NCBI GenBank assembly: GCA_005223035.1
Contig: NJBK01000037.1
Span: 1 to 33,076, forward strand
Direction: 5' to 3'
DNA from: Chloroflexi bacterium B3_Chlor
Lineage (GTDB): Bacteria; Chloroflexota; Anaerolineae; UBA7937; B3-Chlor
Length of the DNA stretch: 33,076 nucleotides
A program made the position numbers and the translations under genes. Positions 4,522 to 24,891 of this stretch are shown here, piece by piece (position 1 is the first letter of the stretch; each line of letters begins with the position of its first letter). Below the pieces are notes generated by a model. It was not told the origin of the DNA and searched no databases. It saw only the letters and a program-made list of their open reading frames with translations.

Positions 4522-5046
4522 TCAGTGCTCGCCATCCAGCGTTCTAAGGAATTCCAGTAAGTCGTCCAGATCTTGGTCTGACATGTGCCAGCGGGGCATA
4601 GTCAGGTCCAGCGGTTCGCCTGCCGGGTTCACCCCCAGCGTAATGGCGCTTCTTATCAACTGCTCGGTGTATGGCGGGTGTTCCTCCCCTTCCTCATGTT
4701 CCTCTTCAAGGAGATGGTGATATCGTATGTCGCCCGGGACCTCAGTGCCCATCATCACCGGCGCACCTCCACGACCGTCGGCTCCATGACACGTAGCACA
4801 GTTTCCTCCACGCATGGAGAGCCACATCGGCCCACCCTCGAAGGGGATGCGCTCCCCTCGTTCGTTCCTACCCGTGAAATAGATGCGCTGGCCGTTGGAC
4901 ACATGCCCTTGAGGCTCAGCGCCCTCTGTGCTTGGTCTTGTCACCAGATATCCCCCGAACACGAGAGCAACGCAGCACACTAGCGCTAGTCCTACCAGCA
5001 CCGCAGCGACGATCACCGCGACCCAACCAACTCGCGAATTCATCAT
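4522..5046 (-). CDS. Membrane-anchored mono-heme c-type cytochrome
   Basis: The protein has a single N-terminal membrane segment (about residues 8-33, VAVIVAAVLVGLALV...) that anchors a periplasmic or extracytoplasmic domain. The heme c site is C83-A-T-C86-H87 in the sequence GGNCATCHGADGRGG; a candidate sixth ligand is a Met in LTMPRWHMSDQDLDDL near the C-terminus, which resembles the last helix of class I cytochromes. An acidic, His-containing insert (HHLLEEEHEEGEEH, about 120-133) lies between them. It probably carries electrons at the membrane surface. Three genes upstream is the selenoprotein-like glutaredoxin block; the methyltransferase follows without a gap. Confidence 0.88.
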   Translation of the reverse strand: MMNSRVGWVAVIVAAVLVGLALVCCVALVFGGYLVTRPSTEGAEPQGHVSNGQRIYFTGRNERGERIPFEGGPMWLSMRGGNCATCHGADGRGGAPVMMGTEVPGDIRYHHLLEEEHEEGEEHPPYTEQLIRSAITLGVNPAGEPLDLTMPRWHMSDQDLDDLLEFLRTLDGEH

Positions 5047-5491: not shown

Positions 5492-5637
5492 CCCGTCTTT
5501 CTCCTTTCAATGCACTCAGCAACAACTGCCGCCACCATCCGAGCGAGACCGGGCGGCAAGAGATAACAGACCCTGGCAGAAGGCGTCTCCATGGCCTTCC
5601 GGTCGTACGTCCCCACGATGGACGGGACCTCAGTCAT
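5488..5637 (-). CDS. Possible small coupled gene, 49 residues, function unknown
   Basis: The frame begins ATG inside the last codons of the YHS gene (ATGACTGA overlap) and ends in an ATGA overlap with the next gene. This double overlap, rather than any homology, is the reason to list it. The product has a short hydrophobic stretch (LARMVAAVVAECIE) and two Cys and matches no family I know. It may equally be an untranslated 140-base spacer. Confidence 0.35.
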   Translation of the reverse strand: MTEVPSIVGTYDRKAMETPSARVCYLLPPGLARMVAAVVAECIERRKTG

Positions 5638-5791
5638 CGCCCTCTTGCTTCCTGAGATACTTCTCAGGATCTTTCTCGAAGGCTGCTTTACACTCTGGAG
5701 CACGGAAGTAGTAGGTCTGGCCCTTGTATTCAGTCTTGGCAGGGGCCTTGTCCTTGTCAACCTCCATTTCACACACTGGGTCCTTGGCCAT
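5630..5791 (-). CDS. YHS-domain protein, 53 residues
   Basis: The protein reads MAKDPVCEMEVDKDKAPAKT, then EYKGQTYYFRAPECKAAFEKDP and EKYLRKQEGDD, a complete YHS domain. The two conserved cysteines are C7 (DPVC) and C34 (PECK), the usual metal-binding pair; the YYF and FEKDPEKYL motifs are also canonical. Free-standing YHS proteins and YHS domains fused to copper ATPases bind Cu or related metals. A strong GAGGTGG ribosome site precedes the ATG. It belongs to the metal-handling group with the CopB-type ATPase and a second YHS-like peptide at 10184-10324. Confidence 0.9.
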   Translation of the reverse strand: MAKDPVCEMEVDKDKAPAKTEYKGQTYYFRAPECKAAFEKDPEKYLRKQEGDD

Positions 5792-5849: not shown

Positions 5850-6086
5850 CTAGGCTTCCAACAACTCCTCGAACTTCGCAAGGTCGAAGCCGATTACCAC
5901 TTCTCCGTCGATCACTGTCACCGGGGAAGTCATGTACCCCAACTCGTCCAACTCTGCCAGGGCTTCCTCATCTATGGTGATGTCTCGATCCACGAAGTCG
6001 AGGCCTCTCTGTGAAAGGAACTCTTTCACCCTCTGACAGAACATTCAACCCGGTTGGCTATATACAATGATAGTCTTCTCACTCAT
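5850..6086 (-). CDS. Glutaredoxin-like selenoprotein (in-frame UGA at catalytic Cys)
   Basis: Read through one UGA (6045-6047, codon 14), this is a complete 78-residue glutaredoxin: MSEKTIIVYSQPG-U-MFCQRV, then KEFLSQRGLDFVDRD, the cis-Pro segment YMTSPVTVIDGEVVIGFD and a C-terminal helix. The UGA takes the place of the first Cys of the CxxC redox motif (U14, C17). The glutaredoxin-PDZ protein in this same window has PTCGYCHQVKQYLSQRG at the aligned position. The start at 6086 has a GGAGG ribosome site 6 bases away, while the internal ATG at 6044 directly after the UGA has none and would delete the first strand and half the active site. A stem-loop follows the UGA. Other genes here end in TGA, so UGA is normally a stop. 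Confidence 0.85.
6011..6029 (-). promoter_or_regulatory. Candidate bacterial SECIS stem-loop in the glutaredoxin gene
   Basis: On the coding strand GTGAAAG and CTTTCAC form a perfect 7-bp stem around a 5-base loop, AGTTC. It begins 15 bases after the UGA, so the loop starts 22 bases downstream, and a G is the second loop base. Known bacterial SECIS elements lie in this distance range and usually have a G in the first two loop positions. The match is by eye and was not folded. Confidence 0.6.
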
Positions 6087-6277
6087 CGCTTCCCTCCCCA
6101 TGTTCAAAGAAGACATGCGCCAGTGACACGGACTGCGTCCATGAGGCCCGACCTCAGGCGGTGTTGAGCCGGGGCTCACTTGCTGTTCGCTTGTGGCCCG
6201 AGTGGTCCGCAACGTCCCTCAAGGCCGAGGGAGGCACGGCGCAAGCGGCCGCCACCTGCGCCATGGCAAACAGCTGC

Positions 6278-7072
6278 CTACGGTCCATACGTCTCCGCCA
6301 GATACTCCACCAAGGCTTGCGCTTCGTCGTCGGCCAAGTGGGCTCCATACTTCCTCATGAGGTCTACCACGGTTTCCCACTGGTCGCGGGTATGGGGATG
6401 ATCCACACGGTGAAGCCCGTGACAGGCCGTGCAGCGCTCTTGCAGTAGTTGTGGGCCACTCGCAATGGGCGGTGCAGTAGGACTCTGGACTACGGATGGT
6501 GTCGTCCCGGCCCACGTCGGAGTGACGCTAAGTTGCTCGGCCGGTGTGGCATCAACCGCGGTAGCGGTAGGGCTGAGAACCCCAGCGGGTGTTGTCTCCA
6601 CGCCCGGCACAGTGGGACTGACCGTCTGTGTCGGCGCTATCTCGATCAAGGGTGGGCTGGCAACCTGGAGCAAGAACCCAAAGTACCAGAGGGCACTGGC
6701 CACAAAGCAGCCCAGTACAGAAAAGCCAGCTATCGCACCCAGAATCCGTACGTATCTCAAGTAGCCGGGAAAGCGCCGAGCGATGATTGCCTTCAGAAGC
6801 ATGGCCACGGCCGCCAAGGTCCCCAAGGCCGCGTGCAATGGGACGCGCAGTGGGTAGACTCGGAAAGGGGCATGAACGACACAGATTACGGCGATGGCAA
6901 TCGTAAGAATCAGTGTGGCATCACCACCTCTGCGATGCCACGCCCTCAATCGCTGGCGCGGGAAAGGAAGCAGCTTGAGAGACCCGGCCACCTGAAGCAT
7001 AGTCGCCGCTTGGGCAATAGCCATCAGCAGCACCACCGTCGTGAGGATTGACTTCGCCATCAGTACGGACAT
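6278..7072 (-). CDS. Polytopic membrane protein with C-terminal cytochrome c domain
   Basis: The first 150 residues hold about four membrane helices (near 5-25, 50-70, 78-98, 108-135) with His residues at the helix ends (WHRR, VVHAPFRVY, PLHAAL) that could bind b-heme; this part was not matched to a named family. A 60-residue Thr/Pro/Ala-rich linker follows, then a compact heme c domain with C214-T-A-C217-H218 and a terminal helix (ADDEAQALVEYLAETYG), like the c-domains that close with a 'VVxYL' helix. It likely links quinol or b-heme oxidation to periplasmic electron acceptors. The start may be the ATG at 7072 or the next one at 7057. Confidence 0.8.
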   Translation of the reverse strand: MSVLMAKSILTTVVLLMAIAQAATMLQVAGSLKLLPFPRQRLRAWHRRGGDATLILTIAIAVICVVHAPFRVYPLRVPLHAALGTLAAVAMLLKAIIARRFPGYLRYVRILGAIAGFSVLGCFVASALWYFGFLLQVASPPLIEIAPTQTVSPTVPGVETTPAGVLSPTATAVDATPAEQLSVTPTWAGTTPSVVQSPTAPPIASGPQLLQERCTACHGLHRVDHPHTRDQWETVVDLMRKYGAHLADDEAQALVEYLAETYGP

Positions 7073-7193: not shown

Positions 7194-9437
<2,244 letters not shown>

Positions 9438-10474: not shown

Positions 10475-11008
10475 TCAGCCTTCGTACATGGGCATCTCCA
10501 GTTCCTGGAAGTACCACTCTCCCTTGTTGGCGAGATAGTCGTAGCTGTTGTCGAGGATCTCGTAGTGGGTACCCTCCCACTCTGCCAACTGCCGATAGAA
10601 GGCCTCAGCCGTGGGATTGTCGGCGTCGGAGGCGGCCTGCTCGTACATCCGCACGGCGCGCTTCTCGAAGTCGATCGCTATCTGCAGTGCTTCCAGGTCA
10701 CTGGCGCCCTCCGGAATGATCTCCTTTACCTCCCCCTCCTCTTGAGGGAAGAGGACAAGTGTTGGGTCTCTCGGCTCGTTCCTGGCCGCGTCCAGATCAA
10801 CCCAATCCCCGGACTCGTTCACCTCGGCATACTGCACCTGCAGGATGTGTAGATGCTCTTCCTCCTCATTGGCGAAGGAACGAAACATGGCTTGGCCCAG
10901 TCTGTCCTTCGTTCTGTCCGCAGCCTGCAAGTACATCGCCTTCCCGTCCAACTCATTGCGGACCGCTTCTCTCAAGATGGCGAGGGAATCGCTAGTATCC
11001 ATAGTCAT
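10475..11008 (-). CDS. Ferritin-like (rubrerythrin-type) diiron protein
   Basis: The 177-residue product has four-helix diiron features: E in NELDGKAMYLQAA, ExxEH-type ligands in NEEEEHLHIL, E in DFEKRAVRMYEQAA and ExxxH in EWEGTHYEIL. There is no rubredoxin domain, so it resembles the YhjR/rubrerythrin-like group. Diiron proteins of this kind reduce peroxide or bind iron. The start at 11008 is set by GGAGG five bases upstream; an in-frame ATG lies at 11020. It is the downstream member of a pair with the paralogue at 11042-11566, with the linker between helices 2 and 3 being longer than usual (LDAARNEPRDPTLVLFPQEE). Confidence 0.85.
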   Translation of the reverse strand: MTMDTSDSLAILREAVRNELDGKAMYLQAADRTKDRLGQAMFRSFANEEEEHLHILQVQYAEVNESGDWVDLDAARNEPRDPTLVLFPQEEGEVKEIIPEGASDLEALQIAIDFEKRAVRMYEQAASDADNPTAEAFYRQLAEWEGTHYEILDNSYDYLANKGEWYFQELEMPMYEG

Positions 11009-11041
11009 CGGTGCCTCCATCAGTATTTCGAGATCGTCGCC

Positions 11042-11566
11042 TCAGAAGGGTTCGAAGCCCATGGCGCTCCAGAACTCCTTCGCGAGCGCGTTGTACTCCT
11101 CTTCCAGGATTCGTTGATGTTCCTTCTCCATGCCGACCAGGTACTCGTACATCGCTTTGCCGTCGGGGTCATGCGTCTCTGAGGCCGCCTTGCTGTAGAA
11201 GGCCACCGCATCCTTCTCCATCAGAAAGGCCATGCGCAGAGCGGACAACTCAGAGGTGTAGACGCTGATGTCCTCCCGCAGAGCCTCGCGAGAGAAGATA
11301 GGAGCTCCCTCCACTTGGGCACGATGTGCGTCCGCCTCCGTCTCTGGCTGGCGCAGCCAGCGCCCCTCTTTAGCTAGGGCCTCCTTCTGTGCCCGCAGTA
11401 GGCGTAGATGCTCCAGCTCGTCGTCCGCCAGCGAGATGAACAGAATCTTGCCGCCTGGATCGTTTGTCCTTTCAGCCGCTCGCTTGTAGAACTCACGACC
11501 GTCCATTTCCGTTTGGATGGCGATACTAAGCGCCATCAGCGCACTGTCCAATCCCTCGTCACCCAT
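11042..11566 (-). CDS. Ferritin-like (rubrerythrin-type) diiron protein, paralogue
   Basis: A 174-residue ferritin-like protein with the same plan as its neighbour: E in TEMDGREFYKRAAERT, ExxH in LADDELEHLRLL, E in MEKDAVAFYSKAASET and ExxH in GMEKEHQRILEEEY. It has the same inter-helix insert length, so the pair arose by tandem duplication. GGAGG lies 6 bases before the ATG. Peroxide reduction or iron sequestration is the likely role; no C-terminal rubredoxin domain is present. Confidence 0.87.
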   Translation of the reverse strand: MGDEGLDSALMALSIAIQTEMDGREFYKRAAERTNDPGGKILFISLADDELEHLRLLRAQKEALAKEGRWLRQPETEADAHRAQVEGAPIFSREALREDISVYTSELSALRMAFLMEKDAVAFYSKAASETHDPDGKAMYEYLVGMEKEHQRILEEEYNALAKEFWSAMGFEPF

Positions 11567-11596
11567 CCTTTGCCTCCTGCGTGGTGTAGCGCCGCG

Positions 11597-12118
11597 CTAT
11601 GGAGTCACTTCAACGGATATCTTCTGACCATCGCGCATGAAAACGAGGGAGACTGGCTGGCCGCGACTTAGAATGGATAGCGCGGCCTCCAAGTCGTCGG
11701 CATCGCGAATGCGACGTCCGGCCAGCTCGATGATCACGTCATCCTTCACTAGGCCCGCCTTGTCTCCCGGCGACAACGGCTTCACCCTGCCGATGTACGC
11801 TCCCTCTGCCGGCCCGGTGCCTTGCTCTTGGGCTATGTTCTTCGCATCTGCTACTGATAGGCCCAAGCGCGGACGTCCGACTTCGCGGGAAGCAATTATT
11901 TGATCCAGTCGAGGTCGATCGAAGCCGACGACCACCTGGCTATCCATCACGATGACGGGCACCCCGCGCTGACCTGACAGGCGCACCATCTCGGCGGCGG
12001 CCTGCGGATTGGCAGCCACATCACGCTCGGTGAAGGTCACACCCCGTTGCGACAGGTACTGTTTCACCTGATGGCAGTAGCCGCAGGTGGGGGTCGTATA
12101 CACGACCACGTCGCTCAT
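11597..12118 (-). CDS. Glutaredoxin-PDZ fusion protein
   Basis: Residues 1-76 are a glutaredoxin with active site C12-G-Y-C15 and cis-Pro segment GVPVIVMDSQVVVGFD. Residues about 82-173 are a PDZ domain: LGLSVADAKNI, GAYIGRVKPLSPGDKAGL, KDDVIIELAGRRIRDADDLEAAL, GQPVSLVFMRDG. No signal peptide or protease domain is present, so it is a cytoplasmic thiol-disulfide protein carrying its own peptide-docking module. It overlaps the nitroreductase by 4 bases (ATGA) and is followed by the two ferritin-like genes, which suggests these as possible partners. Its glutaredoxin half closely matches the UGA-containing glutaredoxin at 5850-6086 (KQYLSQRG versus KEFLSQRG). Confidence 0.92.
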   Translation of the reverse strand: MSDVVVYTTPTCGYCHQVKQYLSQRGVTFTERDVAANPQAAAEMVRLSGQRGVPVIVMDSQVVVGFDRPRLDQIIASREVGRPRLGLSVADAKNIAQEQGTGPAEGAYIGRVKPLSPGDKAGLVKDDVIIELAGRRIRDADDLEAALSILSRGQPVSLVFMRDGQKISVEVTP

Positions 12119-12654
12119 AGCTTCAGATTGCTCCAGTCCCCGTAGTGGACTCTGGTCCTGTCGTACCTCTCATCTTTGGTATGGGGAACTACCATCTTGG
12201 CTGTGTGGCCCAAGCACACCAGAGAAAGGGCACGAAAGCCACTTGGCACCTTGAGGGTGTCCCGCATCACTCCCTCGGCATCGCCCCACGCAAGGTTCCC
12301 GGGACTACCGGCCCATGCACTCCCCAGGCCGAGGGCCGTGGCGGTGATAAGCATATTCTCTATGGCCGCAGAACCATCCAAATCCCAGGTGTTTGAGATC
12401 TCCGGATCGCCATACACGGCGATCACCACCGACGCCTCCTGGATATAGGGGCGGATGCCCAAGGTTTCTCCCAATTGCTCCTGGAGTCCCTTGTTTCTTA
12501 TCACCACAAAATGCCACGGCTGGCGATTCATGTAGGTGGGCGCATACATCGCCATCTCCAGGATAGTTTCCACCTGTTCGTCGGTCACCGATTCGTCGGT
12601 GAATTTGCGAACCGTTCTGCGCTTCTTTATGACCTCTAATACTTTTTCCTCCAT
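12115..12654 (-). CDS. Nitroreductase-family FMN oxidoreductase
   Basis: A 179-residue nitroreductase-fold protein. It shows the FMN-binding start KRRTVRKFTDESV, the MYAPTYMNRQPWHFVVI motif, the dimer-core segment DGSAAIENMLITATALGLGSAW and a C-terminal LVCLGH. It uses NAD(P)H to reduce quinones, nitro compounds or flavins; the physiological substrate is not evident. The start is ATG at 12654. The last 4 bases overlap the glutaredoxin-PDZ gene, so they are translationally coupled. Confidence 0.92.
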   Translation of the reverse strand: MEEKVLEVIKKRRTVRKFTDESVTDEQVETILEMAMYAPTYMNRQPWHFVVIRNKGLQEQLGETLGIRPYIQEASVVIAVYGDPEISNTWDLDGSAAIENMLITATALGLGSAWAGSPGNLAWGDAEGVMRDTLKVPSGFRALSLVCLGHTAKMVVPHTKDERYDRTRVHYGDWSNLKL

Positions 12655-12808
12655 CGTCCCTCCTTATCTCGTCTTTCGAAGGCTGCCTCTGCCCATGCGG
12701 CAGGATAGGAACTGCTTTTCTGAGATCGCCCCTCGGGTGGGACTCCACTGAAATGCAGCCGCACACGCCCGAATCCAGGCTGGGTCTTTCAAGCGCCCCT
12801 CGCGGGAA

Positions 12809-13051
12809 CTACTTGAGCTCGTCAGCCATGAACTTCTTAACGTGATAGTCCCACTCGCGGGTCTCCAGATCCACCGAAGTCTTCTCTCCCTCGCTCACGG
12901 TCACGGTGACGTGCCCACCGCCACCCACGAGAGAAATGCAGCAATCATCGCGAGAGACTAACTCCAGCCCAAGTCCTCCTTCGCCAAAATACTCTTCTGA
13001 CTTGTCCAGGACGTCCGAGGTTCCCAGTTTGGTCTCTTTTCCGTATCGCAC
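12809..13051 (-). CDS. Small protein of unknown function, 80 residues
   Basis: The product is acidic, with a CC pair (SRDDCCISLVGGGGHVTVTV) followed by strands and a basic C-terminal helix (WDYHVKKFMADELK). I do not recognise the family. The GTG at 13051 has GGGG about 7 bases upstream and is preferred; an ATG at 13072 would add seven residues but has no ribosome site. It lies 46-70 bases after korB and about 150 bases before the nitroreductase. The pattern of conserved-looking strands suggests a real protein rather than noise. Confidence 0.6.
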   Translation of the reverse strand: MRYGKETKLGTSDVLDKSEEYFGEGGLGLELVSRDDCCISLVGGGGHVTVTVSEGEKTSVDLETREWDYHVKKFMADELK

Positions 13052-13118
13052 CTCACTTCCCCTTTTCAACATAAACAGCGTACTACGTCAAATCACCACA
13101 ATGCGTTGCTGTGGGATC

Positions 13119-13991
13119 CTACATAAACCCTGACCTCAAGACCGCATAGTCTTCTTCCGTCCATTCCCGGAACCCTTGCTTGACGAGAGGCCCGGCCCGC
13201 AGGACGGCAACCTGATCTTCGTAGGTGGGCACTCCCTCAGCCTGATATAGGATTCCAATGGGGATACGATCACCCCATTCGTGAGCCCTTTCCCAGGCAG
13301 CGGCGCGATCCGCCGGGTCGTAACCTGGTTCCTCCTCCACTTTGTAGACTCTAGGCTGATAGTAGTTGTAAGCATAGGCTCGATTGAAGCTAACGCAGGG
13401 CTGCAATACGTCCACCAGGGCATAGCCACGGTGCTGGATGGCCTTTTTCAGGATCTCGATCAGGTGCCTGAGGTCAACAGAGAATCCGCGGGCGATGAAG
13501 GTAGCACCGGCGGCCAGTGCCAACGACCAAGGGTTAACCGGCCTGTCAATCGCACCCCCAGGCGACGTCTTGCTGACGAAACCGGCTGGACTGGTTGGCG
13601 AGTACTGACCTTTGGTAAGGCCATAGACGCGATTGTTTTGCACAACATCTACGATGTCCATATTCCGGCGGGCGGCATGCATCATATGTCCCAAGCCCAT
13701 GCCGTAGCCGTCGCCGTCACCATGCACGCAGATCACCGTCATCTCATGGTTCGCCAATCTTGCCCCCGTGGCCGGCGGAAGAGAACGACCATGGAGGGTG
13801 TGAAGGCCGTTGACGTGGGTATAGTCCGGCGTCTTGCTCCCGCACCCGATCCCGCTCACCATCAAGACCTCATGCGGTGCCAGATCCAGTTCCGCTAGAG
13901 CAAGCTTCAAGCTGTTCCAGATGCCGTAGTCGCCACAGCCCTTACACCAGGTAGGACGTACAGGGCTTTGATAATCCCTGACTTCAACCAT
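13119..13991 (-). CDS. korB: 2-oxoacid:ferredoxin oxidoreductase beta subunit (KorB-type)
   Basis: The 290-residue TPP-binding subunit shows CKGCGDYG and SGIGCGSK (two of the cysteine sites for a 4Fe-4S cluster), the TPP motif HGDGDGYGMGLGHMMHAARRN, and VQNNRVYGLTKGQYSPTS, followed by QPCVSFN. These are characteristic of KorB/VorB-like subunits that use 2-oxoglutarate or other 2-oxoacids with ferredoxin. The ATG overlaps the 3' end of korA by 8 bases. The substrate is inferred from the family only. Confidence 0.92.
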   Translation of the reverse strand: MVEVRDYQSPVRPTWCKGCGDYGIWNSLKLALAELDLAPHEVLMVSGIGCGSKTPDYTHVNGLHTLHGRSLPPATGARLANHEMTVICVHGDGDGYGMGLGHMMHAARRNMDIVDVVQNNRVYGLTKGQYSPTSPAGFVSKTSPGGAIDRPVNPWSLALAAGATFIARGFSVDLRHLIEILKKAIQHRGYALVDVLQPCVSFNRAYAYNYYQPRVYKVEEEPGYDPADRAAAWERAHEWGDRIPIGILYQAEGVPTYEDQVAVLRAGPLVKQGFREWTEEDYAVLRSGFM

Positions 13992-15738
13992 TCTCCACCT
14001 CCTTCAATTCGGCCAGGATGTATTCCGGTGAGAAGGGGCGCCCATCGTACTTGCGGATGTGATGGTCGATCTTCACCCCGGCATGTGACTCCAGAAGGAA
14101 AGCCATCTGCCCCGTGGCATTGCCCTCAACCATGACCGTGCGCCCAGCATCCGACAGTGCCGCTTTCACCTTCTCCGTCGGGAAGGGCCACACATCTCGT
14201 ATGTGCAACATATTCGCCGTCGTCCCCTCGGCATTCAGGCGGTCTACAGTCTCCCTAAGTGGCCCATAAGTCGAGCCCCAACCTACCAACGTAAGGTCCG
14301 CTTCCGGGGGGCCGTACTGAACGGGGCCGTCCATCTCGTGAAGGGCGGTATCGAGCTTGCGCAGCCGTTTCTCTACCTGCATCCGGCGAGCTTCTGGCTC
14401 CTCCGTCAGGTGACCATCGGGCGTATGCTCGTTCCCGGTCGCCTGATAGACCGCCTTGGGATGACCAGGCAATGCTCTCGGTGAGACACCGGATTCGGTG
14501 TACGCGAACCGCAGGTATTCGCTTTCCAGCTGGTCTAGGTCGTCATCTGTGAGCAGTTCGCCGCGGTCGATCTCCACGCCCGCGAAATCCAAGGCGTCCA
14601 TCTCTATGCTGCGCACTGAGTTGGCCAGGAAGTTGTCGCTGAGGATGATGGCTGGGCACTGGTACATTTCAGCCAGGTTGAAAGCGCGCCAGCCAGCCTC
14701 GAAGCATTCTTCAACGGTGCCGGGCGAGAGGATGATGCGCGGGAACTCGCCTTGCGAGGCGTGCATTACGAATAGCAGGTCGCCTTGTTCAGTGCGTGTG
14801 GCCAAGCCAGTGGCAGGACCGGGACGTTGTGCTTCGACGATGACGATGGGCGTCTCGGTGATCCCCGCCAGGCCCAAACCCTCCGTCATCAAGGAAAAAC
14901 CTCCACCTGATGTGGGAGCCATGGCGCGAGCGCCCATGTGGGCGGCCCCGATCAACATCAGAATGGCGGCTATCTCGTCTTCGGTATGCTTGACCACTAC
15001 ACCGTATCGTTCCCCGTGTCCAGCCATCCACTGGAGGATGGACGTGGCCGGAGTCATGGGATAGCCAGCGACGAATTTGCAGCCGCCGAGCAGAGCTCCC
15101 AGGGCAAGGGCCTCGTTACCGTTCACGAGCATCCGGGGCGGGGCATCCTCTATGCGCCCGAGTTCATAGTCGAACCTGTCTGCATAGTTGTCCCCGGCGA
15201 AGCGGTACGCCGCCTCAGCCACTCGGAGGTTTCCTTCCACGGCCTTAGCGCCCTTCTTGGCAAAGTTGTCCTCGATGACGCTCGCCATGACCTCGAAAGG
15301 AAAGCCAATCAAACCAGCCGCTACCCCTAGCGCCGCGGTATTGCGCATCACCTCTGCGCCACCTTGCTCTTGGGCGATGTCGGTCAAGGGCGCTGGGAAG
15401 TAGTTGACGTCTCGCTTATCCAAGGCTTCGCAGTCCACTTCGAGGCATTCCTCGCAGATGACGCCTCCGCCCGTCACCACCTCCTGACAGTGGCGGTTCA
15501 CGGCCTCCTGAGTCAGGGCCAGCAGGAGGTCTACAGGCTCGGTGTGGGAGTAGATAGGCTTGTCGCTGACGCGGATCTGATAGAAGTTGTGCCCCCCGCG
15601 AATGCGGGAATAGTAGTCTTGCATGCCGAACACGTGCCAGCCTGCGCGGGCCAGAGCTTTGGCGAATCCGGCCCCGCTCGATTCAACGCCTTGTCCGGCT
15701 TCCCCGCCTATCTTGAAAGTCATCTCTTTGTTACGCAT
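13984..15738 (-). CDS. korA: 2-oxoacid:ferredoxin oxidoreductase alpha subunit, gamma-alpha fusion (KorA-type)
   Basis: The 584-residue protein fuses the gamma domain (about 1-190; GGEAGQGVESSG, RGGHNFYQIRVSD) to the alpha domain (about 200-580; GGCKFVAGYPMTPATSI, PTSGGGFSLMTEG, EAQRPGPATG). With KorB it forms the enzyme that oxidises a 2-oxoacid to acyl-CoA and CO2 and reduces ferredoxin, or runs in reverse. The start at 15738 (MRNKEMTFK) has GGAGG upstream; the frame extends to 15759. This low-potential, oxygen-sensitive enzyme sits directly after the peroxiredoxin, consistent with being protected by the surrounding genes. Confidence 0.93.
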   Translation of the reverse strand: MRNKEMTFKIGGEAGQGVESSGAGFAKALARAGWHVFGMQDYYSRIRGGHNFYQIRVSDKPIYSHTEPVDLLLALTQEAVNRHCQEVVTGGGVICEECLEVDCEALDKRDVNYFPAPLTDIAQEQGGAEVMRNTAALGVAAGLIGFPFEVMASVIEDNFAKKGAKAVEGNLRVAEAAYRFAGDNYADRFDYELGRIEDAPPRMLVNGNEALALGALLGGCKFVAGYPMTPATSILQWMAGHGERYGVVVKHTEDEIAAILMLIGAAHMGARAMAPTSGGGFSLMTEGLGLAGITETPIVIVEAQRPGPATGLATRTEQGDLLFVMHASQGEFPRIILSPGTVEECFEAGWRAFNLAEMYQCPAIILSDNFLANSVRSIEMDALDFAGVEIDRGELLTDDDLDQLESEYLRFAYTESGVSPRALPGHPKAVYQATGNEHTPDGHLTEEPEARRMQVEKRLRKLDTALHEMDGPVQYGPPEADLTLVGWGSTYGPLRETVDRLNAEGTTANMLHIRDVWPFPTEKVKAALSDAGRTVMVEGNATGQMAFLLESHAGVKIDHHIRKYDGRPFSPEYILAELKEVENG

Positions 15739-15797
15739 AGCGGCTCCCTCCAGTCTCACCGTGACGCAAGGATGACATGTTTCACCTTGCAGTTTGG

Positions 15798-16271
15798 CTA
15801 CAGGCTTTCTAGCAGCTGGAAGAGTTCTGCCAGATCTGGCGCCTCACCAAGTGGGTGCACTTTGACATATCTTATGACACCTTCCTTGTCGACCAGGAAG
15901 ACGGCACGTTCGGCAAAGCCGTCCGCCTCCCTCAGGACCCCGTAGCGCTCTGCAACCTCCCCATGGGGCCAGAAATCACTCAACAACAAGGTAGCTTTGA
16001 GCCCGAGAGACTCGGCCCACGCGGTCTTGGTGGGCACGCTGTCCACGCTTATACCCAGGACCTGGGTATCAAGGCTCGCGAACTTGGCGCTCTCCGCCTC
16101 GAACGCGGCCATCTCCGTCTCTCACACTGGGGTCCAGGCCAGGGGATGAAACGCCAGCAGGACATTCCGCGTGCCGCGGTAGCTGCTCAGGGTGATCTCT
16201 TGATCCCCGACGGCGGGTAACGTGAAATCCGGAGCTTTGTCACCCACTTTCAACTGCGCTTTCTCGCTCAT
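15798..16271 (-). CDS. Peroxiredoxin-like selenoprotein (in-frame UGA at peroxidatic Cys)
   Basis: Read through one UGA (16122-16124, codon 50) this is a 157-residue AhpC/TSA-type peroxiredoxin. It begins MSEKAQLKVGDKAPDFTLP, reaches the active-site strand NVLLAFHPLAWTPV-U-ETEM, and continues with VLGISVDSVPTKTAW, LLLSDFWPHGEVAERYGVL, ERAVFLVDKEGVIRYV and a C-terminal helix. The UGA takes the place of the peroxidatic Cys in PxxxTxxC (P43, T47, U50), with the catalytic Arg in AERAVF. There is no other Cys, so it is a one-Cys enzyme needing an outside reductant. The start at 16271 overlaps the upstream rubrerythrin stop (ATGA). A start at the internal ATG (16112) would lose the active site and over a third of the fold. 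Confidence 0.87.
16085..16111 (-). promoter_or_regulatory. Possible SECIS-like stem-loop in the peroxiredoxin gene
   Basis: After the UGA, a CCGC/GCGG stem (16105-16108 with 16094-16097) surrounds a 7-base loop GTTCGAG that starts 17 bases downstream. An alternative is TGGC/GCCA (16108-16111 with 16085-16088) extended by GC/GC around a 14-base loop. Both start with a G. These stems are weaker than in the glutaredoxin gene and were judged by eye. Confidence 0.35.
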
Positions 16272-16846
16272 TTCGCCCCTCTCCAATACTGCTCAAGCCT
16301 CCATCGTGCCACAAAGATTGGATAGTCTATCTTCCTGAACGCTGCCGCCCTCGCCCCGCAGATGGGACATGCCTTGGGCAGAACGGCGTCGGAGGTGCAG
16401 CCGCACACCCCACATACGTAGTAGTCGGTCACTTCATCCCGAAGCAGGTGTTGCATTGGCCCTCTTGTACAGTCTGGCGTGCCCTTCCTCCACGTCCTGG
16501 ACGTACCTGAAGGACAGGGCCGGCCGCTGCCCTCCTTCCTCCCCGGCTCCATGATGAACCGAGGACACCTCACCTCGCTGATGGCTGTCTCTCTGTCGAA
16601 GGAGAAGGACAGGTTCGCCTCGGTGCTACTGACAATCGCCTCTCCAAGGACTCGTAGATGGCTCGCGGCGTGGACTTCCTCGGCCGCAGCAATGCCTTGG
16701 AAGAGTCTGGCGATCTGCCCGTGGCCTTCTTCTTCTGACTTCCTGGCGAAGGCCAGGAGCCTGATGTGAGCCTTGGCTTCACCGACGAAGGCCTCGTAGA
16801 GGTTGCCACGCGTTTTCCTGCCCATCTGTTGGCTTCCTGCCGTCAT
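16268..16846 (-). pseudogene. Rubrerythrin, with two compensating frameshifts
   Basis: N- and C-terminal parts are typical rubrerythrin: RKTRGNLYEAFVGEAKAHIR, then EEVHAASHLRVLGEA, and a rubredoxin-like tail YYVCGVCGCTSD...KACPICGARAAAF. Between 16457 and about 16544 the frame is wrong: in the alternative frame it reads EEGGQRPALSFRYVQDVEEG then HARLYKRA, which is the expected third/fourth-helix ExxH ligand segment. A missing G in the GGGG run at 16541-16544 and one extra base near 16457 would restore it. As printed the protein stays open but loses iron ligands. The start at 16846 overlaps the upstream stop (ATGA). Either an assembly error or gene decay. Confidence 0.8.
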
Positions 16847-17439
16847 TGAGCGTAACGTTCCTCCTTCCACGGGTCGGCGTTGTTGTGATAGCCGCGCACC
16901 TCCCAAAAGCCCAATCGATCCTGGGCCATCAATTCCAGGCCTCGCACCCACTTTGCGCTCTTCCACAAGTATCTCTTGGGCACGACCAGCCGCAAAGGAT
17001 GGCCGTGCTCAGGGGTGAGAGGTGCGTCGTCGTACGTGTAGGCCAGGAGGACATCTTCGTCCATCAAGACTTCCAAAGGCACATTGGCAGTGAAATCTTG
17101 TTCGCAGCGTACCAGCACGAACTTGGCCTCGCGCTTGAGCTGGACCAAGTTCATCAGTTCCTCGAATAGCACACCCTCCCAGACCGTATCGAGCTTGCTC
17201 CACCCAGTAACACAGTGGATATCGGCCACGATTCTGGTTGTCGGCAAAGCTAACAGTTCGGTGTAGGATAGGGTGACCGGCTGCTCCACCAAGCCAAACA
17301 CCCTAAGGTCCCAAGTGTCAGGATCGAACTTCGGTATGCTGCCGTAGTGCAGAGCTGGGAACTTCTCGGTCACGCGCTGCCCTGGCGGCACGCGTCCCTC
17401 GTCTACGTCATTGCCGAGCTGTGAGCCACGAACTGTCAT
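16843..17439 (-). CDS. Sulfite-oxidase-like molybdopterin-binding oxidoreductase (cytoplasmic)
   Basis: A 198-residue member of the oxidoreductase molybdopterin-binding family (YedY/sulfite oxidase core). Motifs include HYGSIPKFDPDTWDLRV at the start of the core, the presumed Mo ligand C76 in DIHCVTGWSKLDTVWEGV, and HGHPLRLVVPKRYLWKSAKW with WVRGLEL. No Tat signal is present, unlike YedY/MsrP. Typical reactions are oxidation of sulfite or reduction of sulfoxides; the partner could be the membrane protein encoded immediately before it, although that has no obvious heme-binding pattern. GAGGTGA precedes the ATG. Confidence 0.9.
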   Translation of the reverse strand: MTVRGSQLGNDVDEGRVPPGQRVTEKFPALHYGSIPKFDPDTWDLRVFGLVEQPVTLSYTELLALPTTRIVADIHCVTGWSKLDTVWEGVLFEELMNLVQLKREAKFVLVRCEQDFTANVPLEVLMDEDVLLAYTYDDAPLTPEHGHPLRLVVPKRYLWKSAKWVRGLELMAQDRLGFWEVRGYHNNADPWKEERYAQ

Positions 17440-17448
17440 ATCTTCACC

Positions 17449-17982
17449 TCATCGCTTTCGACGTCGTTCTCCAAACCAGCCCACAACAGGCGGAACCCAG
17501 CACAGGTTGGCGACAATCGCTTCAAGAGCTGTATAGGTCTGCGTCTTGGGACTGAATCCGAGGACACGAGCCCACAGTAATCCCAAAGGAACAATGAGAA
17601 TAATCACTAGACTGGTCAGCATGACGGGATGACGACCGTATTGCCGAATCGCCATCAACCATGAACCTTCCTTTCTCCGTAGGAACACGAGTCCTGATAC
17701 ATTTGCTCCAATCTGGTCGCTCAGAGAGTAGAAATAGGGGATGTAGAATCCCTCCACTCCGTAAACATTCACGCCTAGCGCACGACTTCCCCAGTCAATG
17801 ACCCAGGGTGCGCACATCCCAAGGAGTTTCCCCCATCCATAGGCTTCAGCCATCGAGCCCGTCGCGCGACGAAATCGCTGCCGAAGAGCATAGATTCCTT
17901 CAAAGATGCTCTCGCCTTCGCCTGAGAGAGTGCGGACCATCCACTGTCCGACAGGATTGCGCTGAAAACCGTACGAATCCAA
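17449..17982 (-). CDS. Membrane protein of unknown function, start uncertain
   Basis: The reading frame holds hydrophobic segments at the C-terminus ([19 protein letters not shown] and [18 protein letters not shown]) and a more amphipathic middle ([20 protein letters not shown]). No family recognised. The TTG at 17982 is the first normal start codon, but the frame is open upstream and encodes another plausible segment ([20 protein letters not shown]) that a TTG start would cut through. In the same frame an ATG at 18141 overlaps the stop of the upstream gene but is followed at once by TGA. It lies between the flavoprotein and the sulfite-oxidase-like gene and may be its membrane partner. Confidence 0.65.
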
Positions 17983-18140
17983 CAGGACGCCTAAGAGTAG
18001 CCCTCCAGCAAATCCTGGGATAGTGAACTTGACCAGCTCTGCAAATCCCTCTTCAGCTTCCTGATGCTGTGTCTCTTCTATGGTTACGCGCCTCGCTGAA
18101 CCGATATGGGACTCGTCGATAACGTGTAGCTGGCGTCACA

Positions 18141-18731
18141 TTACCCCTCTCCCGGGCGGGCAAGACTCTTGCCCAGGGCGAAGGCGTCCTCCAGCGCTGT
18201 GGGATGGTTCAGGATGGCCCCCTTCTCATCCACCCCGGGGAATGACAACTCGCCTCCGTACTGGGCATCAAGGGTTTCCAGAAAGGCCTTCACGGCCCTG
18301 ATGGCGCACTGGAAGCTGACATCGGCTCCGCCGGCCGTGGAGACCAGAAATCCCTGGCGCTGGACACCTGTGTCCGTGGACGGCAAGGGGTCCTTCAGAA
18401 CATGCTTGCGTGCCCAAAAGCATTGGCAACGATCGATGAACGCCTTGGCCTGGGCGGGAAGCCCGGTAAAGAAAATGGGAGCAGCAAGCACGATGCGCTC
18501 AGCTTTGATCAGCCTTGGATAGAGCAGCTGGTAGTCGTCCTGCTGGACGCACCTGCCTGTCTCGGAGCAACTGTCGCATTCCCGGCAGGGGCCTATACGC
18601 ATGTCAGCGAGGATGAGCTTTTCTGTCTGCGCTCCCCGGTTGGCCGCGCCGGCCAGAACCTGATCCAGAAGTAACTCGGTGTTGCCTCGGCGACGCGGGC
18701 TACCTGCCAGGCCTAGCACTCTTAGACGCAT
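18141..18731 (-). CDS. Iron-sulfur flavoprotein / NADPH-dependent FMN reductase
   Basis: A 196-residue flavodoxin-fold protein: GLAGSPRRRGNTELLLDQVLAG is the FMN phosphate-binding loop, followed by four cysteines in the compact order C49-x2-C52-x2-C55-x5-C61 (CRECDSCSETGRC), the hallmark of the iron-sulfur flavoprotein (Isf) family that binds a 4Fe-4S cluster, then ERIVLAAPIFFTGLPAQAKAFIDR. In methanogens and other anaerobes Isf proteins help reduce O2 and H2O2. A GGAGG ribosome site precedes the ATG, and the gene starts 9 bases after the double-ferritin stop. Confidence 0.9.
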   Translation of the reverse strand: MRLRVLGLAGSPRRRGNTELLLDQVLAGAANRGAQTEKLILADMRIGPCRECDSCSETGRCVQQDDYQLLYPRLIKAERIVLAAPIFFTGLPAQAKAFIDRCQCFWARKHVLKDPLPSTDTGVQRQGFLVSTAGGADVSFQCAIRAVKAFLETLDAQYGGELSFPGVDEKGAILNHPTALEDAFALGKSLARPGEG

Positions 18732-18740
18732 GGCCCTCCT

Positions 18741-19604
18741 CTACTCGCTTACTTCATCGAGAAGATCGGTGAATACCTCGTCGTGGTAGATCTCGTTGTC
18801 CCGAATACGCGCGATCAGTCTCTTGAGATCCGGATCATCAACCTGCTCTATCTGGCGGGTGTATTCCTTGGTGACCATGCGCTCCACCTCGATGTCGGCG
18901 CGCAGCATGTCTGCCGTATCCGTGGACCGATCAATCCCTGTGTCCTCGATGACTGGGACGCCGCCAGTGTCCGTCAACTCCTCCGCGAGCCAGCCCAGGT
19001 GCTGCATCTCGTTAATAGCCTGGTCCTCCAACTGCTCGCTGACCTCTTCGTCGGGGGTGAGGAAGGAGTGGTAGAGGTATTGCAGAATGACGGTATACTC
19101 GTGGCGGATTCCCCAGTTGAGCATGTCTGACAGCTCCGGGGGCTTGCCACCGGGAGCCTGCAGAGGCGCGATGGGTTCCATGGCTTCCTTCTTGGACTTC
19201 TCGACGAAGTGCTGGAAGTCGTGACGATGGGCCAGTTCGTCCGAGACTATCCGCCGCAAGAGTCGCTTGATCTTGGGATCCTCAATAGCTTTGATGTGCT
19301 CTTCGTAGAGTCCTATCGCATCCTGTTCCAGGCCGACGTCTCGCTGCATCCACTCAGCGATGGTGGCGCCTCCTACGGTCATCTCACCTCGGTCGAGCGT
19401 GGGATCACCACCCAGTTCCACCACTGTCTCCGCGAGCCAGTCCAGGTGACGCATCTCATCTCTGGCGATGGCCTCAATCTCGCAGGCCATCTCGCCCTCA
19501 CCCATTGCGTAGGCGTGCCGCAGATACTGTACGATGGCCGCGTGTTCGCCCTTGATGTCATCACTAAGCATCGCGATGACTTCCTGAGAGTCTTGTGCGC
19601 TCAT
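18741..19604 (-). CDS. Double ferritin-like (bacterioferritin-type) protein
   Basis: The 287-residue product contains two ferritin-like four-helix domains in tandem. Domain 1 (about 1-145) has ligands in DIKGEHAAIVQYLRHAY, AIARDEMRHLDWLAE, LEQDAIGLYEEHIK and VSDELAHRHDF; domain 2 (about 165-285) repeats them in WGIRHEYTVILQYLYHSF, AINEMQHLGWLAEEL, IEVERMVTKEYTRQ and IRDNEIYHDEVF. Each domain keeps the E-ExxH-E-ExxH pattern. Iron binding or peroxide/oxygen reduction is likely. The start at 19604 is chosen because GGGAGG precedes it; the frame extends to a TTG at 19625. Confidence 0.88.
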   Translation of the reverse strand: MSAQDSQEVIAMLSDDIKGEHAAIVQYLRHAYAMGEGEMACEIEAIARDEMRHLDWLAETVVELGGDPTLDRGEMTVGGATIAEWMQRDVGLEQDAIGLYEEHIKAIEDPKIKRLLRRIVSDELAHRHDFQHFVEKSKKEAMEPIAPLQAPGGKPPELSDMLNWGIRHEYTVILQYLYHSFLTPDEEVSEQLEDQAINEMQHLGWLAEELTDTGGVPVIEDTGIDRSTDTADMLRADIEVERMVTKEYTRQIEQVDDPDLKRLIARIRDNEIYHDEVFTDLLDEVSE

Positions 19605-19866
19605 TTTTGCCTCCCTTTGTGTCAACTCCTAACCGCAAGTCTACGAAGATTGTTCACAGCTGCAATAAAGGTGAGAGACAGTCATACTTCCGTCGTCTCC
19701 CTTGCAGCGCAGCGGCGAGCCCTCTTGAGACGACTCCCTTCGGCTGATCGTCCTGCCAAGGGCGTCTGCTGCAGGTCGCATCAGGACCGAGCTCTACCGC
19801 CTCTGCACAAGGAATGGTAGATCAGGCTCAGGAATCGCTCACGAAAGCGCTCGTATCCCCGAGGAC

Positions 19867-20235
19867 CTATCTGGCAGCCACGGCCTTAGTGGCTTCCCAA
19901 ACTCCGTGCAGGTTGCAGTATGCCACTGCCCGCAGAGTTGCGGATTCGTCCAAGGCGATGTGCAAGGTGGTTTCAGGGTGGGAGACCACCGGCGCGAACT
20001 CAGTACGACCAAGCAGGCGGTCTCCGGCGTACAGATCCACCCAGTTGATCCAGTGACCAAGAAGGTTGGGGTGCTCTACACCCTCAATGCCGCCCACCTT
20101 GAGAGCAATGGCAAAAGGTACGCCGGCTTTAACCTCGTCAGGGACATCGAGCACGGGTGTGTGCTTCCGCATCATGTCGGTCATGTTGGCTGGATCTGCG
20201 CGGTTCATCTCCGTTAGTGAGAACTCTTCTGCCAT
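19867..20235 (-). CDS. Superoxide reductase (class II, neelaredoxin-type)
   Basis: A 122-residue superoxide reductase that reduces superoxide to hydrogen peroxide without making oxygen. The Fe(His)4Cys site is complete: H25 in RKHTPVLDVP, H55 in VEHPNLLG, H61 in HWINWVDLYAG, and C107 and H110 in YCNLHGVW. Lys24 is present, but the Glu of the classic EKHxP loop is Arg23. No N-terminal desulforedoxin domain, so it is class II. GAGGAG lies upstream of the ATG. Its electron donor is probably the rubredoxin at 24248, and the peroxide it makes is a substrate for the rubrerythrins and peroxiredoxin. Confidence 0.95.
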   Translation of the reverse strand: MAEEFSLTEMNRADPANMTDMMRKHTPVLDVPDEVKAGVPFAIALKVGGIEGVEHPNLLGHWINWVDLYAGDRLLGRTEFAPVVSHPETTLHIALDESATLRAVAYCNLHGVWEATKAVAAR

Positions 20236-20238
20236 GTT

Positions 20239-20420
20239 TCACTCCTCTCTCTTCTCTAGGGGCTCAGCGATGGGCTTGGCTACAGTAGAATCGGTTCGGT
20301 CGTCACAACCCGCGCTGCGTCCTGCCTCGAAGGCGCAGGCGTCGCAGCAGTAGGCCCTGATACCTCCGCGGATCGGCTGACCTTCGATCTCCTCACCGCA
20401 AAGTTGCACTTCAAAGCCAT
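20239..20420 (-). pseudogene. Small Cys-rich zinc-ribbon protein with a one-base frameshift
   Basis: An ATG at 20420 with AGGAGG 7 bases upstream starts MALKCN, but the frame then turns to nonsense. One base later in frame the sequence reads CGEEIEGQPIRGGIRAYCCD, ACAFEAGRSAGCDDRTDST and ends at TGA 20239, four bases before the superoxide reductase ATG. Adding one base near the TTT at 20398-20401 gives MALKCNxCGEEIEG..., a CxxC...CCDAC zinc/iron-binding protein of 60 residues. The total of 182 bases is one short of a whole codon number. May also be the tail of the preceding ferritin-like gene (see that entry). Confidence 0.65.
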
Positions 20421-20443
20421 GATCACCCTCCTGATTTCGTAGT

Positions 20444-20641
20444 CTACACTGGGAGCGCTGAACCGGTCAGAGTGCAATGAACCCTGGTCCTCCACCGTCG
20501 AAGGAGCATCTCCTCCACAGCTGGATCAGTGGCCAGGCTGGCGCCTAAGGCGTACCTCTGTTGTGAGAGTCGTTCTTGCTCTATGGCCTCTTCCAGTATC
20601 TCCAAGAGCTTCTGTTTCACAGAATCAGGTGCTGTTGACAT
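20444..20641 (-). CDS. Small ferritin-like protein, probably frameshifted
   Basis: The first 47 residues (KQKLLEILEEAIEQERLSQQ, RYALGASLATDPAVEEMLL) look like helix A and start of helix B of a small rubrerythrin-like protein. Then the printed frame loses the pattern and ends at TAG. In another frame the next residues are VEDQGSLHSDRFSAPSVDYE, like a ferritin helix ExxH... segment. Adding one base near CGACGGTGG (about 20500) joins them, and that frame runs on without a stop into the zinc-ribbon sequence, so both may once have been a single 134-residue gene. Confidence 0.55.
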   Translation of the reverse strand: MSTAPDSVKQKLLEILEEAIEQERLSQQRYALGASLATDPAVEEMLLRRWRTRVHCTLTGSALPV

Positions 20642-20656
20642 CTCTGCTCTCGTCGA

Positions 20657-21178
20657 TCAGGTCTTCAGAGCCGCGATGATTGTCCGGCAGAACGCGGGAA
20701 GATCATCGGGCTCCCGTGAGGTGATCAGATTGCCATCCTGCACAACTTCTTGATCTATGTAGGTGGCGCCGGCGTTTATCACGTCATCTTTGATCCCGCT
20801 GAAGCATGTGGCCGTCCGCCCTCGCAAGATGTCGGCGGAGACGAGCACCCATGCTCCGTGACAGATAGAGGCTACGACTTTGCCCTGTAGGAATATCTCA
20901 CGCGCTAGATTGTTGACGGCGGGATAGCGACGCAAGCGATCGGGCGCATAGCCCCCGGGGACGACAAGTGCGTCGAAGTCGGAAGCCTGCACCTGGTCTA
21001 CAGGCATGTCTACCGTCACTGGATACCCGTGCTTGCTGGTATAGGTGTCGGCGCTGCCAGTGCCCACGACGATGACCTCCGCGCCAGCCTCACGCAAGCG
21101 CAGGACAGGGTACCACAGTTCCAGCTCTTGATAGTAGTCCTCAGCCAAGACCGCTATCCGCTTTCCCTTCAGACTCAT
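20657..21178 (-). CDS. DJ-1/PfpI family protein
   Basis: A 173-residue DJ-1/PfpI superfamily protein. The nucleophilic elbow is ASICHGAWVLVSA with C106 and H107; E18 or E20 near the N-terminus (YYQELELWYPVLRLREAG) is the partner acid, and DALVVPGGYAPDRLRRYP is typical of the PfpI group. Members act as deglycases, peptidases or stress chaperones; the Cys is easily oxidised. It is co-oriented with the rubrerythrin upstream and the ferritin-like sequence downstream (15 bases). Confidence 0.93.
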   Translation of the reverse strand: MSLKGKRIAVLAEDYYQELELWYPVLRLREAGAEVIVVGTGSADTYTSKHGYPVTVDMPVDQVQASDFDALVVPGGYAPDRLRRYPAVNNLAREIFLQGKVVASICHGAWVLVSADILRGRTATCFSGIKDDVINAGATYIDQEVVQDGNLITSREPDDLPAFCRTIIAALKT

Positions 21179-21315
21179 GGCTTTCCTGCTAGTTGTGCCA
21201 ATTCGGAGTACTCAGTAGAATCGCAGAGCCAGTCCCAATGCTCCTAGATGGCTTTGGCGGCACACCTCACCGATGCAGAGAGAAGGTCAAGGAGCGACTG
21301 CGACACTCGAACCGA

Positions 21316-21819
21316 CTAGAAGGTTCTGATCTTGTCTGCCTTCGCCCCGCAGAGAGGGCATTTGTCCGGCTTCTCGCCGGTTCCTGTCCAGCCACAGACC
21401 TCGCAGATGTAGATATCGCCGACATCCACATCCTGGCCGCCCTGCACCGCCGTCTTGGACTGACTGTACAGGCCGGCGTGTACTTTCTCCGCTTCCAGGG
21501 CCCAAGTGGTGGAGCGCACGGCCCCTTTCTCCCCCTGCAATTCGGCGACGGCTCGAAAGGCGGGATACATCTCCTCTACCTCATAGGTCTCGCCATCGAT
21601 GGCGGCCTGCAGATTGTCAGCCGTAGTGCCTACGCCATTCAAGTTCCGGAAGTGATTGGTGGCATGCACCTGCTCGGCGAAGGCAATGGCCCTGAACAGC
21701 CGAGCCACGTTAGCATTCCCGTCCGTCTCCGCTTTCTCGGCAAAGATCAAGTACCGCATGTGAGCCTGGCTCTCGCCGGCAAATGCTGCCTGCAGATTGG
21801 CTTCGGTCATTCTCCTCAT
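21316..21819 (-). CDS. Rubrerythrin
   Basis: A 167-residue complete rubrerythrin: diiron ligands in AGESQAHMRYLIFAEKA, AFAEQVHATNHFRNL, ETYEVEEMYPAFRAVAE and ALEAEKVHAGLY, then a rubredoxin-like Fe(Cys)4 domain IYICEVCGWTGTGEKPDKCP and LCGAK. It reduces H2O2 to water with electrons from rubredoxin. Unlike the second rubrerythrin at 16268-16846 it is intact and supplies an internal reference for that gene's frameshift. The ATG at 21819 overlaps the stop of the FAD reductase (ATGA); an ATG at 21810 is also possible. Confidence 0.96.
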   Translation of the reverse strand: MRRMTEANLQAAFAGESQAHMRYLIFAEKAETDGNANVARLFRAIAFAEQVHATNHFRNLNGVGTTADNLQAAIDGETYEVEEMYPAFRAVAELQGEKGAVRSTTWALEAEKVHAGLYSQSKTAVQGGQDVDVGDIYICEVCGWTGTGEKPDKCPLCGAKADKIRTF

Positions 21820-23066: not shown

Positions 23067-23069
23067 CGG

Positions 23070-24245: not shown

Positions 24246-24247
24246 CG

Positions 24248-24412
24248 CTAGTCTGCCAACTTCTGGAACATGTCCTTCTCGGCACCGCACTCGGGGCAGA
24301 CCCAATCATCGGGCAGATCCTCGAAAGCAGTGCCCGCCGGAATACCGTTGTCGGGGTCTCCCACTGCCGGGTCATAGATATAGCCACAGGCCAAGCATTC
24401 CCACTTCTCCAT
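24248..24412 (-). CDS. Rubredoxin
   Basis: A 54-residue rubredoxin: [20 protein letters not shown], then a [15 protein letters not shown] ending, with the four iron ligands C6, C9, C39 and C42. The ATG at 24412 has AAGGAG 6 bases upstream. It is the one-electron donor for the flavodiiron protein coded directly after it and probably for rubrerythrin and superoxide reductase. Confidence 0.96.
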
Positions 24413-24474
24413 CTCAGTCTCCTTTCTTGATCTCGTCATCTGTAGAACAAAAGAGGTCTGACAACATTCAAAGG

Positions 24475-24891
24475 CTACCCCTGACACCCAGAGCAGTAGC
24501 CGTAGAAGACCACATCGCAACGCACGATTTGATAACCGGAGGCTTCTTCCGGTAATAGCTTAGGGTTCTCGGATGCCCGCATGATGTCCACCACGCCTCG
24601 GCAATTGAGACAGACTAAGTGGTAGTGTCCGTCGGTGCAGGGATCGTAGCGTCTCTTGCCCTCACGAAGATCAAGTTCCGTCACTTCTCCCATCGCAACC
24701 AAGTCATTCAGGGCGTGGTAGACCGTGGCGGGGGATATGTCGGGCATGGCGTCGCGTACGCTGTGATAGATATCCTCAGCGGTGGGATGCTCTGCGCCGT
24801 CTTGCAAGACTTCGAAAATCAAACGCCGCTGAGGCGTGATTTTCATGCCTCTCTCCCTCAACATGTCGCAGAGTTCTTTGACAGGCCTCAT
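24475..24891 (-). CDS. Fur-family regulator, PerR-like
   Basis: A 138-residue Fur/PerR protein. The winged helix (about 1-80) has [16 protein letters not shown] and [18 protein letters not shown]. Two structural Zn pairs are C94-x2-C97 and C133-x2-C136. Metal-sensing candidates are H35, D83 or D87, H89, H91 and D102; the Asp at the position where Fur has Glu is a PerR feature. PerR senses peroxide by metal-catalysed oxidation of a His. The start at 24891 is chosen because it opens the winged helix; the frame to 25047 runs across the promoter. It sits at the head of the oxidative-stress run. Confidence 0.9.

Follow-up and report, generated by a model that had tools for sequence, protein, structure and literature searches.

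Glutaredoxins that carry selenocysteine (Sec, U) are an already known kind of bacterial selenoprotein, as a sequence-only reading of the present locus had also stated. Since at least 2006, according to an extract of the work concerned, a glutaredoxin has been counted among the selenoproteins of Geobacter sulfurreducens, Alkaliphilus metalliredigenes, and Moorella thermoacetica (PMC1794560), and the excerpt of a 2026 table lists Grx with a UxxC motif above the entries grouped as 'Predicted with high confidence' (PMC13188914). The gene described here, from contig NJBK01000037.1 of Chloroflexi bacterium B3_Chlor (GCA_005223035.1), shares with this known selenoprotein Grx (PF00462, UxxC) the glutaredoxin fold and the Sec at the first UxxC position. 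The hosts differ, as far as the descriptions in these extracts go: Deltaproteobacteria and Clostridia for the known Grx, Chloroflexota for the present gene, whose active site is GUMFC. Among solved structures, the closest chain is the glutaredoxin 7c10/7c12 (E 4.8e-15 over 73 residues), which shares the peptide VKEFLS, encoded in the present gene by an RNA hairpin, but whose site is CPHC, unlike GUMFC. The UXX-star family (NF041212) likewise consists of small glutaredoxin-like proteins named for Sec, although the present protein falls below its cut-off (51.3 versus 66). The YruB and NrdH redoxins have a Cys codon where this gene has UGA, and NrdH-redoxins are among its solved relatives. To this known kind, the analysis adds support from covariation, a branch with the motif GUxFC in which every sampled member has Sec, a possible link to metals, and a second gene bearing UGA. 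A hidden selenoprotein could be recognised from raw sequence and backed by covariation; an annotation that reads UGA as a stop only would lose both the selenoglutaredoxin and the peroxiredoxin genes.

The window, that is, the whole stretch of DNA analysed (33,076 nt), belongs as contig 68 to a draft genome of 2.82 Mb with a completeness of 85%. From comparison of sequences, the gene at 5850-6086 (Table 1) very probably encodes a selenoglutaredoxin of the U-x-x-C type, with a probability of about 0.95. Translated on the reverse strand from 6086 to 5850, the frame reads MSEKTIIVYSQPG-U-MFCQRVKEFLSQRG... and ends at the TAG. The read-through protein matches the Pfam Glutaredoxin model PF00462 with an E-value of 2.9e-16 (59.9 bits, cut-off 22.9), and protein conservation extends over both flanks of the UGA. 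The sequence-only reading had described the TGA as the sole break in a glutaredoxin frame, a ribosome site and a start codon belonging to the part upstream of it, and a Cys aligned to the UGA in the glutaredoxin-PDZ protein of the window. These three observations were borne out: the frame of 78 residues is otherwise open, GGAGG stands just 5′ of the ATG, and the aligned site of the paralogue at 11597-12118 is CGYC.

Table 1. Features of the window that bear on the predicted selenoglutaredoxin (positions refer to the window).
Feature	Position	Strand	Basis or remark
Predicted selenoglutaredoxin gene, 78 aa, U14-x-x-C17	5850..6086	(-)	ATG 6084-6086, stop TAG 5850-5852
In-frame UGA, predicted Sec, first position of the CxxC motif	6045..6047	(-)	Codon comparison with homologues
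Ribosome-binding stretch, GGGGAGGGAAGCG before the ATG	6087..6099	(-)	Sequence
Putative bacterial SECIS apical hairpin, GUGAAAG-AGUUC-CUUUCAC	6011..6029	(-)	15 nt 3′ of the UGA; cross-genome pairing
YHS-domain protein	5630..5791	(-)	58 bp after the selenoglutaredoxin gene on its strand; Pfam PF04945 over cut-off (E 1.1e-17)
Heavy-metal/copper P-type ATPase, upstream	7194..9437	(-)	NCBIfam TIGR01525 and TIGR01511, over cut-off
DUF6529 protein	6278-7072		Adjoins the selenoglutaredoxin gene; weak cytochrome match below cut-off
Cytochrome c	4522-5046		Near the selenoglutaredoxin gene
Glutaredoxin-PDZ protein, Cys paralogue (CGYC)	11597..12118	(-)	Profile and alignment
AhpE-like peroxiredoxin, second UGA-bearing redox gene, without Cys	15798..16271	(-)	Pfam AhpC-TSA, E 1.2e-36

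The codon found at the UGA position in homologous genes is the first line of evidence. A script read 131 loci, including the two glutaredoxins of the window, and 126 distinct genes remained once rows with the same 48 nt had been reduced to one. The codon is TGA in 89 of them (the window's included) and TGC or TGT in 36, so that the Cys homologues that the sequence-only reading proposed to look for do exist; the one remaining row (L102, GGA, codon extrapolated) could not be placed and stays out of the Sec and Cys counts, although it was kept in the neighbourhood count. These counts leave out loci L152-L161 and the search matches that were not fetched. It is important to note that the ratio of Sec to Cys is not a frequency, because 20 of 51 loci were chosen for being listed with TGA and the other 80, named loci, which are the best 80 of 204 relatives found with two patterns, lean towards Sec, one of the patterns being the hairpin-encoding peptide. 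When 400 genomes from the phylum were searched with the protein, 94 of them gave matches with E <= 1e-8, and a search of 60 closer relatives gave matches in 29, the host's own genome being included in both figures. In the latter search, the five matches from other genomes with E < 1e-20 each hold one TGA, and two of the five come from the same family as the host (G401 and G402). From a genome of the same genus (G400, 68% complete), the search yielded the Cys glutaredoxin-PDZ gene only.

If the glutaredoxin gene were broken, or the sequence in error, the UGA would be a true stop and the frame a remnant. A single substitution would leave just such a lone TGA in an otherwise open frame, and the window does come from a draft genome. 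Against this, a further 88 distinct genes have TGA at this very codon, which makes a sequencing error very unlikely, and the conservation of the protein on either side of the UGA, the covarying hairpin 3′ of it, and the Sec machinery of the genome all speak against a remnant; the probability left to this explanation is very small.

The second line of evidence is the hairpin. The sequence-only reading had noted a perfect 7-bp stem-loop with G as the second loop base, 15 nt after the UGA, and this is indeed what the sequence holds (GUGAAAG/CUUUCAC, loop AGUUC). The constraints for bacterial SECIS elements (bSECIS), as given in the excerpt of PMC13188914, are an apical loop of 3-9 nt with G in one of the first two positions, a stem of 4-16 bp, 16-37 nt from the UGA to the loop, and an energy of <= -7.5 kcal/mol. 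The hairpin of the window lies within all four, as this excerpt words them, with a loop of 5 nt, G second, 7 bp, 22 nt, and -7.8 kcal/mol. By itself, the hairpin carries little weight. Its stretch of 45 nt has an alternative fold of lower energy (-11.2 kcal/mol), and stretches of 42, 50, and 81 nt around it fold no better than their shuffles (z-scores of -1.02, 0.20, and -0.03). All seven pairs arise at this site in 215 of 20000 synonymous recodings of the gene (about 1%). Among the 127 TGAs of the window flanked by open frame on both sides, 24 are also followed by a hairpin by a loose rule, so the presence of a hairpin does not by itself discriminate; of these 24, just two, the glutaredoxin and the peroxiredoxin, resemble interrupted genes on visual inspection. 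The search of the window against Rfam at gathering score gave no match.

The comparison across genomes is what places the hairpin far beyond chance. All seven pairs are formed in 60 of the 89 UGA rows, compared with a mean of 0.5 and a maximum of 4 in 1000 trials of a synonymous null. A hairpin by the loose rule is present in 84 of 89 UGA rows (absent from five) versus 2 of 36 Cys rows (Fisher 7e-23, with related rows treated as independent). This contrast is independent of the Sec to Cys ratio, since within the subset of the other 51 loci the seven pairs are complete in 26 of 39 UGA rows and in none of the 12 Cys rows. Pair 2 covaries, being U-A in 28 rows, C-G in 28, and A-U in 12, and its type changes at least 14 times on a tree that is poorly resolved; its partners are the second base of a Val/Ala/Glu codon and the third base of a Ser codon. 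In the register test, 92% of the cells are paired in register versus 34-67% when slid by one to three columns, and pairs 1 and 2 are formed in 146 of 178 cells, while shuffling gives a mean of 107 and a maximum of 118. The earlier suggestion of a bSECIS search and RNA folding thus had a divided outcome: the hairpin search told UGA genes from Cys genes and revealed covariation, whereas the folding of the single sequence was neutral.

The exceptions to this pattern were also noted. The two Cys rows with a hairpin by the loose rule are L108 and L126, the hairpin of L126 being different and A/T-rich. L108 (match 6001-6231) is a Cys glutaredoxin of Syntrophomonadaceae which keeps a SECIS-like hairpin after its TGT, likely a relic of a change from Sec to Cys. 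Conversely, three glutaredoxins of Desulfobacterales (L113, L117, and L125) have UGA and the motif FUGxC, without a hairpin by the loose rule; perhaps these have a different type of SECIS.

The third line of evidence is the presence of the Sec machinery, for which the sequence-only reading had proposed a search of the source genome. The same genome holds SelA (569 bits), SelB (313 bits, or 350 together with its in-frame neighbour), SelD (367 bits, its own frame containing a TGA), and a tRNA-Sec with anticodon UCA (74 bits), all of them over the cut-offs; ARAGORN found no tRNA within the window itself. This set bears on another explanation, according to which the UGA would be decoded as Trp or Cys without SelB, by code reassignment or near-cognate suppression. 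Cys would suit the active site chemically, but the presence of SelA, SelB, SelD, and tRNA-Sec, together with a hairpin that tracks UGA and not Cys codons, leaves such decoding a very small share of the probability. The pseudogene, the sequencing error, and the code reassignment were all rejected, each on the grounds given for it above. The alignment of UGA with Cys, the machinery, and the covarying hairpin support the reading of the gene as a U14-x-x-C17 selenoglutaredoxin, and the insertion of Sec at 6045-6047 may be predicted from these comparisons with near certainty.

Regarding its family, the selenoglutaredoxin lies below the curated cut-offs. Its best NCBIfam matches, both nearly full length, are YruB (TIGR02196, 67.6 bits, cut-off 88.55) and then NrdH (TIGR02194, 55.8 bits, cut-off 85.75); it reaches 32.6 bits with the Grx3 model (cut-off 90) and matches the mycoredoxin model poorly (23.1 bits, cut-off 89.5). 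The paralogue with a PDZ domain exceeds the cut-offs of both UXX-star (76.9 versus 66) and YruB. In several longer relatives of this glutaredoxin-PDZ type, UGA stands where the first Cys would be; the lineage may therefore have changed from one of the two residues to the other. All 27 distinct sampled members with the motif GUxFC have Sec, although Cys members of this branch could be missed, because the scan favoured the hairpin-encoding peptide; five rows with xFC and no G are divided into two TGA and three Cys. By the tree labels, the 27 rows belong to Chloroflexota, Acidobacteriota, Nitrospirota, Myxococcota, and Actinomycetota, nearly all of them from draft metagenome assemblies. In a poorly resolved tree of 124 rows, the window falls in a mostly Sec half (47 Sec and 6 Cys rows); membership of the branch is approximate, since support is below 80 at 62 of 121 inner forks, and L023 and L025 carry GUxFC but fall outside this half. 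No description of a GUxFC branch was found in the open-licence literature searched, and this branch, below the cut-offs of the curated subfamilies, is possibly new.

The mechanism would follow from what is established for bacterial Sec. SelB and Sec-tRNA would bind the hairpin, and Sec would be inserted at the UGA. To judge from the active site, the selenolate would attack disulfides, sulfenic or selenenic acids, or metal-thiolates, and Cys17 would resolve the resulting selenenylsulfide. The likeliest reductant would be thioredoxin reductase, because the protein is closer to YruB and NrdH redoxins than to the glutathione glutaredoxins; a thioredoxin reductase is present in the host genome. Glutamate-cysteine ligase (PF04107, the only glutathione route searched) was not found, which is weak evidence since the genome is 85% complete.

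The genes around the selenoglutaredoxin suggest that it may serve in soft-metal and oxidant stress. In addition to the metal ATPase, the YHS protein, and the cytochromes of the window, a heavy-metal/copper ATPase gene ends directly before the selenoglutaredoxin in G401, from the host's family. More distant relatives have MerA genes over the curated cut-off beside them (at L073, L090, and L101, and one of the two MerA genes at L080), while in the genome of the window itself no MerA reaches the cut-off; also beside such relatives stand MerR and ArsR regulators, an HMA protein, and a MerT-like protein below its cut-off. Within 4.5 kb, mercury- or copper-type genes occur at 18 of 37 branch loci compared with 5 of 43 loci outside the branch from that scan (Fisher 4e-4, rows treated as independent), a contrast that is inflated and partly circular, because the query genes were chosen after viewing the branch's own loci. 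The 37 loci were hand-picked from the tree and the motif, the flanks searched amount to 266 kb versus 341 kb, and antisense ORF clusters were disregarded by eye. None of the queried metal genes was found at the other 19 of the 37. On this genomic context, we give a role of the selenoglutaredoxin in metal stress about even odds.

A broader proposal, which we consider rather improbable, is that the GUxFC proteins form an obligately selenium-dependent family, spread across phyla together with mercury and copper resistance genes, in which the pair of selenolate and thiol would act on soft metals beyond disulfides, and which in the present host may, together with the AhpE-like peroxiredoxin, sustain a peroxide relay based wholly on selenium. 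If the branch were truly Sec-only and linked to metals, it would offer a natural test of why an active site keeps selenium and not sulphur.

The peroxiredoxin mentioned above is the basis of a different view of the function. Its closest solved relatives are the entries for Rv2238c/MT2298, known as AhpE. Its UGA (16122-16124) is at the peroxidatic position, where 7 of the 30 homologous loci read, the window's included, have TGA; by the loose rule, a hairpin follows in one of these seven rows only, the window's own. It has no Cys besides the Sec position, and therefore it needs an outside reductant. The selenoglutaredoxin could chiefly reduce this peroxiredoxin, in a peroxide relay of two selenoproteins, instead of acting as a metal-stress redoxin. 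By analogy such a relay is plausible: mycoredoxin-1, a glutaredoxin homologue, can reduce the sulfenic acid of AhpE of M. tuberculosis (AhpE-SOH), as reported in an extract of PMC4360819, and for the one-Sec MsrA of C. oremlandii an extract of PMC4333827 reports recycling by glutaredoxin, with thioredoxin unable to do so. Moreover, genes for a glutaredoxin and a peroxiredoxin are near each other in at least four genomes, as judged by eye, with gaps of 70-76 bp (G397 and G072), 498 bp (G105), and 3.1 kb (G073). However, none of these four listed genomes has UGA in both members of the pair; the peroxiredoxin alone has it in G397, G072, and G073, and the glutaredoxin alone in G105. In the window, about 10 kb separates the two genes, and no such peroxiredoxin is found in the stretches read of G401 and G402, where the syntenic place lies. 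Of the branch loci that were compared, L088 alone has peroxiredoxin-like matches close to it, and by eye these resemble thiol-disulfide oxidoreductases. The poor match to the mycoredoxin model, given above, also speaks against the relay. On balance, it is doubtful that the relay is the chief function, and that the peroxiredoxin of the window is a substrate of the selenoglutaredoxin remains a tentative suggestion, less probable than the service in metal stress. The two roles are compatible.

Other arrangements of redox genes were seen in the course of the comparison. At L076 (3438-7340), a class-V aminotransferase gene (cysteine desulfurase-like), the selenoglutaredoxin gene, and a gene for the catalytic chain of ferredoxin:thioredoxin reductase with a rubredoxin-like tail share one strand within a few kb, the reductase gene coming after the selenoglutaredoxin gene; this reductase is a possible reductant of the selenoglutaredoxin there. 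At L105, from 447 onwards, a NifU-type gene (below the cut-offs) is accompanied by the selenoglutaredoxin gene and an ORF that by eye is ferredoxin:thioredoxin reductase-like. In the window itself, an island at 10475-25047 contains genes for ferritin-like proteins, rubrerythrins, desulfoferrodoxin, a flavodiiron protein, and rubredoxin (several of them named by eye), as well as an NADH:rubredoxin reductase-like gene and a Fur-like gene. Much of this island is also present in G401, and its content resembles what an anaerobe would use against oxygen.
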